DNA of 24,596 bases from positions 1 to 24,596 of the IMG/VR virus record IMGVR_UViG_3300043420_000050; one strand, 5' to 3'. The notes below the pieces were generated by a model. The model was not told the DNA's origin and did not search any database. It saw nothing but the letters and a program-made list of their open reading frames with translations. Source of the DNA: a virus. Shown here in pieces: positions 9,568 through 14,522 of this stretch. Within the stretch, counting starts at the first letter, position 1, and each line of letters starts with the position of its first letter. A program made the translations under genes and the position numbers.

Positions 9568-9825
9568 CTATTTATCTTTGTTCTTATGTTTCCAGGCTGT
9601 AGCGTAAGCAATACCTTCTTTATCTTTAGGATAATTCTTTTTGATATGCTTCACCATTCTTTCATACTTCTTACCAGGAGGAGCAACTTCATCTAGTGCC
9701 TCCTCTTTCATCTTCTGCTTTTCAACAGTCTTGAGAACATACTTCTTATGTTTTCTCTTTTCTTCTTTATCTTCTTGGGCACCGTCTTCAATGCTAGGCA
9801 TTACTTCAACGTGTGCCGACTTCAC
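9568..9825 (-). CDS. Small Lys/Glu-rich protein, 85 aa
   Basis: The product is highly charged. Residues 15-45 are a Glu/Lys helix (EDKEEKRKHKKYVLKTVEKQ). The C-terminal part contains YERMVKHIKKNYPKDKEG followed by IAYATAWKHKNK. This MVKHIKK...AYATAWK module is one I remember from several unrelated cyanophage proteins, where it seems to act as a short reusable unit of unknown role. The start overlaps the stop of the upstream EF-hand-like gene as ATGA, so the two are probably made together. There is no catalytic motif. A role in head or internal protein assembly is possible but not shown. Confidence 0.75.
   Translation of the reverse strand: MKSAHVEVMPSIEDGAQEDKEEKRKHKKYVLKTVEKQKMKEEALDEVAPPGKKYERMVKHIKKNYPKDKEGIAYATAWKHKNKDK
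9569..9576 (-). promoter_or_regulatory. Possible late promoter box GATAAATA
   Basis: The minus strand reads GATAAATA, 7 of 8 matches to the late consensus, 25 bases upstream of the 58-aa gene. It overlaps the final Lys codons and stop of the 85-aa gene, so the match could be due to coding alone. Confidence 0.3.
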
Positions 9826-10571
9826 TTTTTTTCTTCTTCGATCTCCTTACTAAGTTCTAAAGACTCTTTCATTTTCTTCTTAGCGCCAATGACAGCAGAG
9901 ATCTTCTTACGACGTGCTAGAAGATATTTGTCAGACTTATCATGATCACCATCGTTATCAACATCCTTATCTTCCTTGCCAACTGGATCTAGTTTCTTTT
10001 CTCCAAGCATTTGACCTTCTGGTTCGTAACCTGCTTTAACACACTTGTCTTTTCCACCTTCGGTGCCAGCATACTTATAACCTTTCCAGCAAGCTTTGCC
10101 GTCAGCACCTTGCTCCTTACCAGCAGCATTCTTTTTCTCAAAGATATAAGTTTTACCATTGAGTTGAAACTCATAAGTTGTGCCAACTAGTTCTTCATGG
10201 AAGACTTCTTCTTTCTTCATATCTTTCTTGCCATCACATTGACATTTTGCTTTGCCACATGACTCACATAATTCTCTTTCCTCACGGGCAACCACCTTCG
10301 TGGTGTCTTTAATCTCTGCTCCATGAGACTGCTTAACGCCAGCACCTGTACGTAGATCAACAGCGGGGTCAGGAGCACCAGCATTTGCTTTGGGGTCCTT
10401 CTTGCTGAAGTCATCTTCTCCACCTTTTTTCTGAAGTTCAGGATATGTTTCTTCTTGTTGTAAGTGCTTACCAAATCCTTCGCCGCCCATCCAGCGACCA
10501 TAAGATTCAATTAAAGCCTGTGAAAACTCATCATTATATTTGAGACTAGTCGTTGGTTTCTGCCTTTCCAT
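9822..10571 (-). CDS. Mosaic protein with a Cys cluster and a dockerin/EF-hand-like Ca-binding loop
   Basis: The product has 249 residues and is very hydrophilic. In order it shows an N-terminal segment with SQALIESYGRWMGGEGFGKH, a Gly/Asp/Lys linker and a tight cysteine cluster LCESCGKAKCQC (C102, C105, C110, C112) that could bind zinc. A small unit ACWKGYKYAGT...GGKDKCVK (C161, C177) follows. Residues 203-214 (DVDNDGDHDKSD) match the 12-residue EF-hand/dockerin loop with acidic residues at positions 1, 3, 5, 7, 9 and 12. A basic helix KYLLARRKKISAVIG and an acidic tail close it. An exact late promoter box lies 31 bases upstream. Cyanophage proteins built from these short units are common and uncharacterised; an internal virion or scaffold role is a guess. 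Confidence 0.8.
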   Translation of the reverse strand: MERQKPTTSLKYNDEFSQALIESYGRWMGGEGFGKHLQQEETYPELQKKGGEDDFSKKDPKANAGAPDPAVDLRTGAGVKQSHGAEIKDTTKVVAREERELCESCGKAKCQCDGKKDMKKEEVFHEELVGTTYEFQLNGKTYIFEKKNAAGKEQGADGKACWKGYKYAGTEGGKDKCVKAGYEPEGQMLGEKKLDPVGKEDKDVDNDGDHDKSDKYLLARRKKISAVIGAKKKMKESLELSKEIEEEKK

Positions 10572-10818
10572 TATTTGTAAAGATACTACTTTTCCTTTCT
10601 TTATTTATAGTCTCTTGAACTTCACGTATATCAGTAACCCAAGCACGAAACATAATACCAGCTTCAGTAATAGCAATAACATAATTAGGACCCGATCGAT
10701 GTACTCTTCCTTTTTCTCCAGTATTGACATTCATCACCAGATCTCCTGGTTGATACACTTCCTTCAATCGAAAGCGTTGTTGATCTGCTGTCTTCTTTAA
10801 ATCTTTAAAATTTCTCAT
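10546..10818 (-). CDS. Small protein with an SH3/KOW-like beta domain, 90 aa
   Basis: A basic helix at residues 1-20 (MRNFKDLKKTADQQRFRLKE) is followed by PGDLVMNVNTGEKGRVHRSG, then YVIAITEAGIMFRAWVTDI. The GD(L/V)V...TG..G.V pattern and short strands suggest a KOW or SH3-like small barrel of the kind that binds nucleic acid or protein, but this is inferred from pattern only. The last 20 residues are polar. The start overlaps the stop of the 590-aa gene as ATGA, so it is coupled to it. Its 3' end holds the late promoter box for the following gene. Confidence 0.7.
   Translation of the reverse strand: MRNFKDLKKTADQQRFRLKEVYQPGDLVMNVNTGEKGRVHRSGPNYVIAITEAGIMFRAWVTDIREVQETINKERKSSIFTNNGKAETND
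10602..10609 (-). promoter_or_regulatory. T4-type late promoter box TATAAATA
   Basis: The minus strand carries an exact TATAAATA, 31 bases upstream of the Cys/EF-hand-like gene start at 10571, inside the end of the 90-aa gene. The exact match, the spacing and the second identical box at 9332-9339 make a functional late promoter likely. Confidence 0.6.
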
Positions 10819-12587
10819 ACACCCATACCCAGAGCATCTTGCATATTATTAGCATAATTTTTAGTTCTCAATTTAATCCACTGCTTATACTGCCCAAAAT
10901 TTCTGGTGCTAACAAAATCATAATACAATCTCATTTCATTATTAATTTCTTTTTGTTTTGTTATAGAGTATAACACACTTTCTTTCAATAGGACTTGTTC
11001 ATAAAATAACTTGTAAAAATTTATTTGAGTTGCTCCAGTTTCATATGAAGTTTGAACAAGAACTCGTTCACATAACAAAGCGACATTATTCAAAGCAAAT
11101 GGATATTTTTTATTCGGACTTCTTTTAACCGCTTCTTCTTCTGTTAAAGAAATACATTCCTTAACTTTTTTGGTTTTACTCTCTTCTTTAAAAAGATTGT
11201 CTGCTATAAAATTTTTTGTTTTCAAAAGCAAACCAGGATCCGATATAAGATTATCCAAAGGTTCAAAATTTTTATTGATGCTGGTAATTTTTTTATCCAA
11301 AATTGTCAATACTTGATTCCATTCATTAACCGACATTGACGAAGTATTCAGCACTTGTTTGAAGTCACTAGTAACTTGTGATTTCTTAGATCCAGCTAAT
11401 AGTTTTCTCAATCCTCTTATAGGATACAGAGTTCCTTTACTACTATATTTGTTATACTCCATAGCAGAAGAAGCTATCATTCTCTGCCCAATCTGAGAAG
11501 ACCTAGCATTTGATGCTATACTTTTAAACCACTTATGTACTTCTGCTTCTCCACCAGGAAATGCTGTCTGGAATTTAACTGTTGCTGTAGAAGATCCTCT
11601 CATCTGTGATTTAACACTAATCTTCAACGGAGTATTTCTATTACCATTAACAGCAATTTTATAATCAATCAATGCTTCGTTAGCTGCTTCTGGCAAATAA
11701 ATTTCAACCTTAGTAATCCTTTCTTCTTCTGGCCACCCAACAACATCTTTTATAATCTTATTGTTAGAAGACAAAAGTTTAGATATTTTTAGAACAGAAA
11801 GAACTTCAAAAAATTCTGACGACATATCTGGTGCCACACCAAGTTTATCATCTAAAGTATTATTATTCCATGAGTTAGAAACCGCCTCAACATAACTCTC
11901 TCTAAGATAGTTACTAGTAAAAATACTGTTAGAATCTGGATGATTAATAAAAGATATAACATTATTATAAAATTGCTGAGGACTTAACCACACATCAGTA
12001 ATTTTTGGACTAACGTCTTTTGGTTTTAATGAAGATAGCTTACCACTACTTTCCGCTTTACCAGCATACTTCAATGAAAAATTGTAATTGATTCCAGTTT
12101 TTTTAGTTACAATGTTACCCTTCTTATCTAAAACTTTATAAGCATAAAATGATTTAATAACTAAAGTTGGGTTTTTGCCACCAGCTAATGTGTGTAACTT
12201 GATCTCTGTTATATTTAATTTATTTTTGATACTTTTAGAATTAACGAAGGAGATCATATCCTGAATGAATGACGCTCTAGGAGTTCTAAAGTTCAAAGCA
12301 GAATATTTTTGATTTCCATTATCACATGTCATCTTGTAATTATATGTGATGGAACTCTTTCCTTTGATAACCGCTTCAATCTCGGTTAGAGTTCCGTCTT
12401 CGTCTACATCCTTACTACCACCCTCTATAATAAAATCAAAACCATTCGTTTCATTGTATTGTTTATTAAAAGCATATCCAGCAGCAACATGAACGAGTCT
12501 CAGCATCCTTCTAATTCTTGTTGCTGGAATATCAATATCAATATAGTTGTCAATGTTTCTTTGTTCTTTTCGTAAGTCAAATGCCAT
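10815..12587 (-). CDS. Large unknown protein, 590 aa, coupled to the ligase/nucleotidyltransferase fusion
   Basis: I do not recognise this protein. It begins MAFDLRKEQRNIDNYIDIDI, with a mixed alpha/beta N-terminal half in which two segments follow a similar beta-rich plan (TEIEAVIKGKSSITYNYKM near residue 80, and DYKIAVNGNRNTPLKISVKS near residue 320). The second contains an acid followed by a strand ending in I-S-V-K-S, which resembles the (D/E)XK region of restriction-type nucleases. This is weak. The C-terminal 200 residues are helical and Lys-rich. Its codon choice looks more AT-rich than gp41 or nrdA, suggesting separate acquisition. The start shares a base with the upstream fusion gene stop (TAATG), so the two proteins are likely partners; the next gene overlaps as ATGA. 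Confidence 0.85.
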   Translation of the reverse strand: MAFDLRKEQRNIDNYIDIDIPATRIRRMLRLVHVAAGYAFNKQYNETNGFDFIIEGGSKDVDEDGTLTEIEAVIKGKSSITYNYKMTCDNGNQKYSALNFRTPRASFIQDMISFVNSKSIKNKLNITEIKLHTLAGGKNPTLVIKSFYAYKVLDKKGNIVTKKTGINYNFSLKYAGKAESSGKLSSLKPKDVSPKITDVWLSPQQFYNNVISFINHPDSNSIFTSNYLRESYVEAVSNSWNNNTLDDKLGVAPDMSSEFFEVLSVLKISKLLSSNNKIIKDVVGWPEEERITKVEIYLPEAANEALIDYKIAVNGNRNTPLKISVKSQMRGSSTATVKFQTAFPGGEAEVHKWFKSIASNARSSQIGQRMIASSAMEYNKYSSKGTLYPIRGLRKLLAGSKKSQVTSDFKQVLNTSSMSVNEWNQVLTILDKKITSINKNFEPLDNLISDPGLLLKTKNFIADNLFKEESKTKKVKECISLTEEEAVKRSPNKKYPFALNNVALLCERVLVQTSYETGATQINFYKLFYEQVLLKESVLYSITKQKEINNEMRLYYDFVSTRNFGQYKQWIKLRTKNYANNMQDALGMGV

Positions 12588-14362
12588 TAGGACATACCTG
12601 CTAGTACTGCTTGGATATACATTTTCTTAAATTCCTTATCGTTCTTAACTGCTTGAGGTAACCCACTTTCAACCGTAGCAAAGTCACCTTCCACAATTGC
12701 TTTACGAACTTTACTGGCAGACATTCCAGATACATCATCAGCATCAGGATCTCTAGTGCCAGCACTCTTGATCTCAACAGTATTCATGTTGTAGTCTTTA
12801 CCATTATACTGTTTGATAAACTGGAATGCTGGTACACGATCAGAACCAACTACAAAGATAGCATCAGTATATCCTTCACTTTCCAACCACTTCAATGCTT
12901 TGATAGCATCACGAATGTCTTCATTTAGGATAAGATTTTTCTGGTGAGAAGGAAACATCGCTTTCATAAGAGTAACTTTCTGAGCAGCGGTCAAAGGGTT
13001 CTTTCCTTTTTTGTCGGTGGTATGACTAGGGAACACGTAGTAATCATTACCAGCAGCATACTCCTTGACTTTATTTATTAGTAGCTCATGACCCGTGGTA
13101 GGAGGATTGAAACGACCGAAGGTGAATACAGCAACCTTGGCACCGTCACCAACAGGAGGACGCCAGGACTTCTCAAGCGTGAAGTTAGCACGAGAGAACT
13201 CAAGACGATCAACGATCTTGACTGCCTTGCCATCAACGATGGCAACGAAACCTTCAGGTTTAGTCACCACAAAGTTGTCACCACTACGAAGGAACACACG
13301 AGTATCGCTGAGACCAGCAAGTTTCAGATTGATCAGGTTCTTGGCATTCGTGAAAGAGTTATACATCACAATGAATGCTTTGAATGCTCGATGGTTGTTC
13401 TCTAGATACGAGATACCGTCAGCAAGAATGTCACGATACTGTGCCTTAGACTTTTCAGTTTTTAGACTCTCAATCTTCTCTATCAGGGACTTCTCAAACG
13501 CTTTCGTGAAACCGCTGATGAAAGCATTTACGTTCGTGATGGTCTTACCTTCTTTCACGTAGGAGTTCGTGAAACGCTTCATCGTATAACCAAGCGTGAA
13601 TTGCTTTCCTGCTTCATGGGAGATCAGTTCAAGAAACTCCTTAGCAGTAGAAGCATTTCGAGAAACAACAGAGATAACAGACTTCAACACACGCTCCTCA
13701 GAAGGTGTGAGACCAGACTTGGCGCTGATGTTATCTACAGTAGCAGTCGCCAGGAATACGTTACGAGTGGATTTGAGGTTGAAGCGATCAACCCCGAAAC
13801 CAGCAGACAAAGTATTTACAGGACCAGTACCGCTGTAATAGGTATGAAATACAGCACCGATCTTAGCAGTATTTACTGCCTTGCCCAGATCGCTATCCAC
13901 AGGCCAAGCATACGTTAGAGTGTTAGGGGTAGCAGTATAGAAACGTTCTCCATCGATAATTTTCGTCTGAACGTCTTCATCCGTAAAGAGAAGGTCTCCT
14001 TGGATAACTCCCTTGATCTTGAGTTCGGGGAAATACTTCAGACAATACTTCAGTTTCTTAGCGAGGTCAGGGATCTCTCCATGGTTTTTATCAATATCTT
14101 CTTCAGTAAAATTGATCTTCGGTTCTTTCTTATTGAATACAGACTTGGTGCCTACAAAGAAGTTACCGCTCTCTGGGTCGATGCCACAAACCACAGCAGG
14201 AGCGCCGTCCCATTTGGTAGTAACCTTTACGTTACCAGTGGGACGACCACCAAGTTCATCTATAAAGTTTTGAATTAGGTCCTTGGAAGCGATGTATCCA
14301 TTATATCCATAATTAATTAACTCATCTTCCAGGTGCTCCAGGTGCTTATTCTGGGTTGCCAT
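12587..14362 (-). CDS. RNA-ligase-like domain fused to a HIGH-family nucleotidyltransferase (NMNAT-like)
   Basis: The protein has 591 residues and two domains. The N-terminal about 400 residues carry covalent nucleotidyltransferase (RNA/DNA ligase) motifs in order: motif I TTKWDGAP with the candidate adenylated lysine K50, motif III-like GVIQGDLLF near residue 117, motif IV-like PEGFVAIV and motif V-like KAVKIVDR. From about residue 410 a second domain begins VAVFTFGRFNPPTTGHELLI, the (H/T)XGH nucleotidyltransferase signature (H425). It ends with GMSASKVRKAI, the ISSTXXR-like motif of NMN adenylyltransferases and relatives. The first domain would seal or adenylate RNA or DNA; the second would transfer AMP or CMP to a small substrate such as NMN. 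The joint substrate is unknown. A late-type promoter box lies 20 bases upstream. Confidence 0.85.
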   Translation of the reverse strand: MATQNKHLEHLEDELINYGYNGYIASKDLIQNFIDELGGRPTGNVKVTTKWDGAPAVVCGIDPESGNFFVGTKSVFNKKEPKINFTEEDIDKNHGEIPDLAKKLKYCLKYFPELKIKGVIQGDLLFTDEDVQTKIIDGERFYTATPNTLTYAWPVDSDLGKAVNTAKIGAVFHTYYSGTGPVNTLSAGFGVDRFNLKSTRNVFLATATVDNISAKSGLTPSEERVLKSVISVVSRNASTAKEFLELISHEAGKQFTLGYTMKRFTNSYVKEGKTITNVNAFISGFTKAFEKSLIEKIESLKTEKSKAQYRDILADGISYLENNHRAFKAFIVMYNSFTNAKNLINLKLAGLSDTRVFLRSGDNFVVTKPEGFVAIVDGKAVKIVDRLEFSRANFTLEKSWRPPVGDGAKVAVFTFGRFNPPTTGHELLINKVKEYAAGNDYYVFPSHTTDKKGKNPLTAAQKVTLMKAMFPSHQKNLILNEDIRDAIKALKWLESEGYTDAIFVVGSDRVPAFQFIKQYNGKDYNMNTVEIKSAGTRDPDADDVSGMSASKVRKAIVEGDFATVESGLPQAVKNDKEFKKMYIQAVLAGMS

Positions 14363-14381
14363 GTACCTGTCCTTTATTACC

Positions 14382-14389
14382 TATTTATT
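14382..14389 (-). promoter_or_regulatory. Late-type promoter box AATAAATA
   Basis: The minus strand has AATAAATA, 7 of 8 to the T4 late consensus. It lies in the non-coding gap between tRNA-Ser and the ligase/nucleotidyltransferase gene, 20 bases before its ATG. This gap has no other feature that I can see. Confidence 0.5.
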
Positions 14390-14437
14390 TTAGCAGCACC
14401 ACAGAGGACCGTGAGTAGCAGTGGACAGTTTGAAAAG

Positions 14438-14522
14438 CGGAAGGGGTGGGATTCGAACCCACGGATGCTTTCACATCGCTAGTTTTCAAGACTAGAGCCT
14501 TAAACCACTCGACCACCCTTCC
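14438..14522 (-). tRNA. tRNA-Ser (anticodon TGA)
   Basis: The 85-nt cloverleaf can be drawn on the minus strand. The acceptor stem GGAAGGG pairs with CCCTTCC, with discriminator G. The D arm contains GTCGAGTGGTTTAAGGC. The anticodon stem CTAGT/ACTAG holds the loop CTTGAAA with anticodon TGA. A long variable arm (CGATGTGAAAGCATCCG), typical of class II serine tRNAs, and a T arm with GGTTCGAATCC follow. The 3' CCA is not encoded. It starts 2 bases after the stop of the oxygenase gene, so it is probably cut out of the mRNA. It would read UCA and related Ser codons, used often in an AT-leaning phage. Confidence 0.95.

Follow-up and report, generated by a model that had tools for sequence, protein, structure and literature searches.

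The known RNA-repair set of phages consists of a kinase, a Pol-beta nucleotidyltransferase and an RNA ligase (Iyer et al., 2021, PMC7824862). In most cyanomyoviruses, a DUF6267 protein and a protein labelled 'cytidyltransferase' (T4-GC 71 and 190) are encoded by two neighbouring genes. Here, we analysed a window of 24,596 nucleotides (IMG/VR virus record IMGVR_UViG_3300043420_000050, positions 1 to 24,596), which is a piece of a T4-like cyanophage near Synechococcus phage S-PM2, and focused on a gene of 591 amino acids in which orthologues of both proteins are joined in the same order and on the same strand. The described enzymes that resemble its N-terminal half are the RNA ligases 1 and 2 of phage T4 and the RNA ligase of Naegleria gruberi, and those that resemble its C-terminal half are the adenylyltransferases NadD, NadR, NadM, human NMNAT and PPAT/CoaD. 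In the split pairs, additional domains at the C or N terminus are common in the partner of DUF6267.

We consider it about an even bet that the fused gene encodes a bifunctional protein, in which a divergent polynucleotide ligase working through lysyl-AMP, probably of the RNA-repair type, is coupled to an adenylyltransferase of small metabolites. The parts of the gene are as follows:

12587..14362, minus strand: whole fused gene, 591 amino acids, from the open reading frame (ORF) and its translation; stop codon at 12587-12589
13169..14350, minus strand: DUF6267 domain, residues 5-398, predicted RNA-ligase-like nucleotidyltransferase (Pfam PF19782, E 2e-111)
14204..14215, minus strand: motif I, K50-W-D-G, with the predicted adenylated lysine (K50, D52 and G53 in 73/73 relatives)
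13994..14002, minus strand: motif III region, Q121-G122-D123, followed by L-L-F, in strand 119-127 (73/73)
13313..13729, minus strand: helical insertion, residues 212-350, between motifs IIIa and IV (secondary structure of the AlphaFold2 model)
13244..13255, minus strand: motif IV, E370-G-F-V (E370, G371 and V373 in 73/73)
13205..13219, minus strand: motif V, K382-I-V-D-R386 (K382 and R386 in 73/73; valine at position 384 in 68/73)
12590..13150, minus strand: HIGH-superfamily adenylyltransferase domain, residues ~405-591 (PF01467, CTP_transf_like, 31.2 bits, cut-off 21)
13088..13117, minus strand: GRFNPPTTGH nucleotide-binding motif (TxGH), G416 to H425 (H425 and P420 in 45/45, R417 in 44/45)
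12704..12721, minus strand: SASKVR, equivalent of ISSTxxR, residues 548-553 (S548 in 44/45, R553 in 45/45)

An earlier note, made from the letters of the window, had placed the gene exactly at these coordinates and had left the strand unstated; the gene lies on the minus strand, and on the plus strand stop codons interrupt the reading across 12587-14362. The homologue in S-PM2 (S-PM2d138) is likewise a single coding sequence (CDS) with 90% identity over the full length; it is labelled only 'hypothetical protein' there and cytidyltransferase-like protein in the BFVD/UniProt entry.

The N-terminal half covers the full DUF6267 profile with 373.4 bits (gathering cut-off 27) and also belongs to PHROG 455. 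Neither family carries an assigned function, and no proposal for the function of DUF6267 was found in the literature that we reached. Using 73 non-redundant sequences as input, AlphaFold2 produced a model of this half with a predicted local distance difference test score (pLDDT) of 90.4 and a predicted template modelling score of 0.85. In this model, K50 sits in a beta core, the QGD sequence in a strand from 119 to 127 and H173 in a strand from 168 to 177, while E370-G and K382 form part of a C-terminal hairpin. Much of the helical insertion is missing from the shorter forms of P-SSM4, S-SM1, S-RIM8 and P-SSM2 in the alignment. Re-alignment of Foldseek's 1000 best chains with VIA-align placed RNA or DNA ligases at all ranks from 1 to 20 (Z 8.7 to 5.9). 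The best match was the Naegleria RNA ligase (NgrRnl, PDB 6vt3/5cot; Z 8.7, 186 residues, root-mean-square deviation 3.8), followed by T4 RNA ligase 2 (RnlB, PDB 1s68/2hvq; Z 7.2 over 178 residues), an archaeal RNA ligase (Z 6.8) and also DNA ligases. Since this top list is uniform, the matches span the whole core and the motifs follow in the same order, the assignment of the modelled DUF6267 structure to the ligase nucleotidyltransferase fold is convincing. NAD-dependent ligases and capping enzymes do not appear in this list, an absence that excludes neither of them.

The likeness to NgrRnl lies in the nucleotidyltransferase fold and in the order of the lysine-adenylation motifs. It is confined to the C-terminal nucleotidyltransferase part of NgrRnl and comes with 10% identity, whereas the helical insertion and a motif V of the form K-x-V-x-R are DUF6267's own. 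The same two features set DUF6267 apart from T4 RNA ligase 2, whose fold it resembles; a Pfam RNA_ligase match is lacking. With T4 RNA ligase 1 (RnlA, gp63), DUF6267 shares KxDG (T4 K99-E-D-G), EG[YF]V (T4 E227-G-Y-V), a spacing of 12-13 between the glutamate of motif IV and the lysine of motif V (12 in DUF6267, 13 in T4) and a local profile similarity in motifs IV-V, but the K-x-K is lacking, split DUF6267 proteins end just past motif V and the overall similarity is not significant. In the comparison of profiles with hhalign, the best match to T4 Rnl1 covered motifs IV-V (38% identity in 21 columns, E 0.013; EGYVAVMKDGSHFKIK in DUF6267 versus EGFVAIVDGKAVKIV in the T4 genome record) and scored 26 versus 20 for a reversed decoy, so that profiles alone, here of a single pair, leave homology to Rnl1 unproven. 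The DUF6267 profile returned only coiled-coil noise against the sequences of solved structures, and the Vibrio phage DUF6267, used as query in a scan, had no hits.

Ten residues of DUF6267 (K50, D52, G53, K73, D123, H173, E370, G371, K382 and R386) show no variation among the 73 non-redundant relatives, and the invariant core residues are largely retained in the short cyanophage forms and in the homologues from Vibrio and Xanthomonas phages. Ahead of motif I, a set of the type H-x2-H-x-E-D (H7, H10, E12 and D13) is nearly invariant. The motifs listed in the earlier note for both halves are all present and far from chance (E 2e-111 for DUF6267), and its prediction that K50 and H425 are conserved among relatives held throughout (73/73 and 45/45). 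What fell short was the completeness of the classical ligase set, as motif V lacks its second lysine; this residue is present in 33/33 Rnl1 sequences (T4 K240, K242) and in 30/31 Rnl2 sequences. Two residues beyond this position stands the invariant R386. DUF6267 also has no OB domain or motif VI: the split forms stop about 15 residues past motif V, where in the fusion the HIGH domain is found. Because of the change in motif V, the missing OB domain and the N-terminal set, we did not file DUF6267 under Rnl1, Rnl2 or DNA ligase; if our inference is right, it would work like an RNA-type ligase. In P-TIM68 (L287:2425-3213), the annotated start of DUF6267 lies too far downstream, at a methionine inside motif I, and the conserved N-terminal set is thereby lost from the annotated protein.

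As fold and invariance suggest, K50 would attack a nucleotide, most likely ATP, resulting in lysyl-AMP. By analogy to the family, the AMP would then be passed to a 5'-phosphate end, which would be sealed to a 3'-OH. More tentatively, these would be RNA rather than DNA ends, because an OB/motif VI domain is missing, the nearest folds are nick-sealing RNA ligases and the enzymes encoded nearby, described below, fit. During infection, the protein would thus probably mend tRNA or other RNA that has been cut, and repair after cleavage by the host is the most economical guess.

A structural model of the whole fusion reached a pLDDT of 90.2, and Foldseek matched the C-terminal half to human NMNAT, NadD (NMNAT/NaMNAT) and PPAT at probability 1.00. 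Both halves therefore aligned with the folds that the earlier note had predicted for them. Z-scores in VIA-align ranged from 12.3 to 14.0, with PPAT (up to 14.0) and NadD/NMNAT (up to 13.1) about tied. The likeness to NadD, NadR, NadM, human NMNAT and PPAT/CoaD comprises the HIGH fold and the TxGH and SxSKxR motifs, at about 11-20% identity; the TxGH is PPAT-like, whereas NadD has HxGH. The best NCBIfam match was TIGR00482, the equivalog of NMN/NaMN adenylyltransferases (nicotinamide and nicotinic acid mononucleotide), with 27.7 bits, far from its cut-off of 112.45, and the score of 20 for TIGR01526 was also short of the cut-off of 341. The specificity for NMN that the earlier note had proposed is consequently not borne out. 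From its model and motifs, the C-terminal half is best described as an adenylyltransferase of the NMNAT/PPAT class; 'cytidyltransferase' is a superfamily label. Together with ATP, this half would adenylylate a small phosphorylated metabolite of the NMN, NaMN or phosphopantetheine class.

The arrangement of the two genes in other phages connects both halves. Most cyanophages carry two neighbouring genes instead of one fused gene. All of the 89 split pairs are encoded on the same strand; the adenylyltransferase gene is located downstream in 88 and directly adjacent in 50. The pair is also present in a Vibrio phage of the Straboviridae. Among the fetched loci, 49 complete fused ORFs were found, and S-PM2 has the same single CDS, so that the fusion is no sequencing artefact. 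These ORFs belong to the S-PM2 clade, where the fusion is conserved, and to a second lineage (L064, L187). The idea that it is conserved in cyanomyoviruses is hence true for this clade and not in general. A maximum-likelihood tree requires two changes, which are forced by well-supported branches, and the fusion arose at least twice. Since very diverse phages hold the two genes together and at least two fusions took place, the halves probably act in one pathway, a functional coupling that is supported by linkage and repeated fusion. The fusion is already contained in databases, while no description of it was found in the literature searched. In the IMG/VR copy of S-PM2 (L056:4983-6780), the fused gene is split into two overlapping frames; it is intact in LN828717.

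Further enzymes are encoded at DUF6267 loci. Outside the S-PM2 clade, 77 loci have at least 3 kb of downstream sequence; of these, 62 contain the adenylyltransferase, 20 a P-loop kinase and 19 a Pol-beta nucleotidyltransferase, the last usually in the same chain as the adenylyltransferase. The kinase is nearest to L-seryl-tRNA(Sec) kinase (TIGR03574, E 2.5e-10). Kinase, Pol-beta enzyme and RNA ligase make up the phage RNA-repair set introduced above, which is why we favour RNA repair; the context as such leans towards repair of nucleic-acid ends. At one locus (L095:5183-7921), a chain of 913 amino acids next to DUF6267 combines the P-loop kinase, the Pol-beta-type nucleotidyltransferase, the HIGH adenylyltransferase and a small C-terminal domain. 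At another (L139:5417-8548), the HIGH adenylyltransferase shares its chain with two domains, one RimK-type ATP-grasp and one Zn_protease-like.

Several observations weigh against a ligase coupled to an adenylyltransferase. Foldseek alone gave no match of DUF6267 to the PDB at E < 1e-3, and its list consisted of helical bundles, driven by the helical insertion; the structural match at Z 8.7 is modest; a Pfam scan with E values up to 1 matched this half to no ligase family, RNA ligases included; and motif V reads K-x-V-x-R instead of K-x-K. The kinase and Pol-beta enzymes occur in only about a quarter of the loci, three phages (S-CRM01, EniLVp02 and XaC1) hold DUF6267 as well as a classical ligase, and the substrates of both halves are putative.

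Almost every cyanomyovirus examined encodes DUF6267, as do many other T4-like phages from the sea. In 16 phages with DUF6267, neither the ATP-dependent DNA ligase domain (PF01068) nor the RNA ligase domain (PF09414) was detected above cut-off. These are S-PM2 (two records), ACG-2014j, HTVC008M, S-SZBM1, S-SCSM1, P-SSM2, P-SSM4, S-SM1, S-SKS1, S-CAM1, S-RIM8, P-TIM40, P-TIM68 (with a sub-threshold and interrupted ligase match), RB11-B and two IMG/VR contigs larger than 175 kb. The NAD-type ligase domain PF01653 was found in none of the 16 records first examined, to which this search was confined. The reverse pattern, a gp30 ligase and no DUF6267, is seen in T4 and three other T4-like records (KVP40-like records and L226). 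According to Clokie et al. (2010, PMC2984593), no g30 homologues are found in cyanomyoviruses, where distant ones may escape recognition. Such a complementary distribution is suggestive, and it matches the view that the replicative or repair DNA ligase missing from cyanomyoviruses and pelagiphages is DUF6267, which would seal DNA nicks instead of T4 gp30, with the adenylyltransferase as an accessory for nucleotide or cofactor supply. That the gene lies inside the replication module, flanked by gp41/mazG on one side and gp61/nrdA on the other, agrees with this role. Nevertheless, we regard it as unlikely: the pattern follows two large clades (Kyanoviridae versus Straboviridae), so that it is confounded by phylogeny and does not count as independent evidence, an RNA ligase would fit it equally well, the host NAD+ ligase can stand in, and the absence of the OB fold and motif VI as well as the three phages with both enzymes speak against it.

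Somewhat less likely still is a role in NAD+ or CoA economy or in nucleic-acid capping. Here, NAD or a similar dinucleotide would be the product of the HIGH half, and the adenylate would be consumed or passed on by the ligase-like half, for instance to replenish NAD+ after a NADase defence of the host. The HIGH half is indeed nearest to NMN/NaMN adenylyltransferases in sequence and to NMNAT/PPAT in fold, and NMNAT-like homologues were detected when virions of S-SCSM1, S-SZBM1 and S-CREM2 were analysed. Still, its scores are far under the curated cut-offs of NadD and NadR, the specificity for NMN is putative, and no system of NAD salvage or capping in which a ligase fold takes part is known to us. 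A nicotinamide phosphoribosyltransferase, as in the phage NAD+ salvage by NadV with NadM or NadR, is not among the annotated neighbours seen; no genome-wide search for it was made. The fused protein matched neither the adenylation domain of NAD+-dependent ligases (PF01653) nor families of anti-phage defence.

The virion data also bear on a structural or chaperone role, in which the protein, like its split adenylyltransferase relatives, would be an internal component of the virion whose enzymatic folds are left over or help in assembly. T4 RnlA offers an analogy, having a role in tail-fibre attachment as well. Proteomics of CsCl-purified particles identified the adenylyltransferase homologue S-SZBM1_140 (362 amino acids), whose gene adjoins the DUF6267 gene, its counterpart ORF91 in S-SCSM1 and a cytidylyltransferase of S-CREM2; the authors of two of these papers warn of possible carry-over. 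Wherever the adenylyltransferase half of the fused protein goes, the ligase half would go too. Products of neighbouring genes are present in the virions of S-SZBM1 and S-SCSM1, and a box resembling late promoters precedes the fused gene. The elements read ahead of the gene are:

14370..14375, minus strand: AAAGGA, Shine-Dalgarno-like, 7 nt ahead of the ATG, read off the sequence
14382..14388, minus strand: ATAAATA, resembling a late promoter of the T4 type, some 20 nt upstream, suggestive only

Among relatives, this box is not specific to DUF6267, as it occurs in 20/70 of the DUF6267 upstream regions versus 72/354 control ORFs, and its eight copies in the window compare with 6.7 expected by chance. 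The split DUF6267 protein is not on the virion list of S-SZBM1, and the catalytic residues are invariant over very divergent homologues, unlike those of relics, which leaves a structural role improbable.

Least probable of all is a ligase that supplies itself, in which the HIGH half makes a dinucleotide (e.g. NAD+ from NMN and ATP), DUF6267 uses it as AMP donor and the protein itself recycles the NMN set free; the lost lysine of motif V and the H7/H10/E12/D13 set would then be signs that the donor is not plain ATP.

Marine T4-like phages are very abundant in the ocean and mostly without a recognised ligase, and DUF6267 may be a hitherto unfound joining or repair enzyme of this group. With DUF6267 as an enzyme of the ligase fold with an intact lysine-adenylation core, the puzzle of the missing DNA ligase of cyanomyoviruses becomes directly testable. 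The constant pairing with an adenylyltransferase that was detected in purified virions hints at a new way of organising nucleic-acid repair or counter-defence.

On the 5' side, the fused gene is accompanied by genes for MazG, the gp41 helicase, UvsX and DNA polymerase, and on the 3' side by small phage genes, followed by primase gp61 and ribonucleotide reductase. Its stop overlaps the start of the following gene (TAATG) and it therefore belongs to an operon-like run. The ATAAATA sites at 2168, 9332, 9569, 10602, 13072, 14382, 14929 and 23908 all lie on the minus strand, which encodes most genes of the window. Directly 5' of the fused gene lies a tRNA-Ser gene (anticodon TGA, 14437-14522, minus strand). 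We rejected this linkage as a functional clue, given that the tRNA-Ser was found in S-PM2 and a few members of its clade only and in none of the other lineages scanned.

The gene that starts on the stop of the fused gene (10815-12587, minus strand) encodes a protein of 590 amino acids without significant match in Pfam, PHROGs, NCBIfam and PADLOC. Other phages have a gene of different sequence at the equivalent position, e.g. of the KWNPADIW...SLK type, and the protein or its positional counterpart possibly adopts a restriction-endonuclease-like fold. The small protein encoded at 10546-10818 (minus strand) has relatives that are recorded as 'ribonucleotide reductase alpha subunit' or 'possible cytitidyltransferase'; both names look misannotated, because in other phages its homologue is a domain located after the HIGH adenylyltransferase (positions 216-275 of PHROG 395). 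Finally, the protein encoded at 9822-10571 (minus strand) contains a GKEDKDVDNDGDHDKSDKYLLARRKK motif, which is also found in further proteins that cyanophages encode in this region. One protein with this motif is a listed virion protein of S-SCSM1, and the motif is possibly a packaging or targeting tag.

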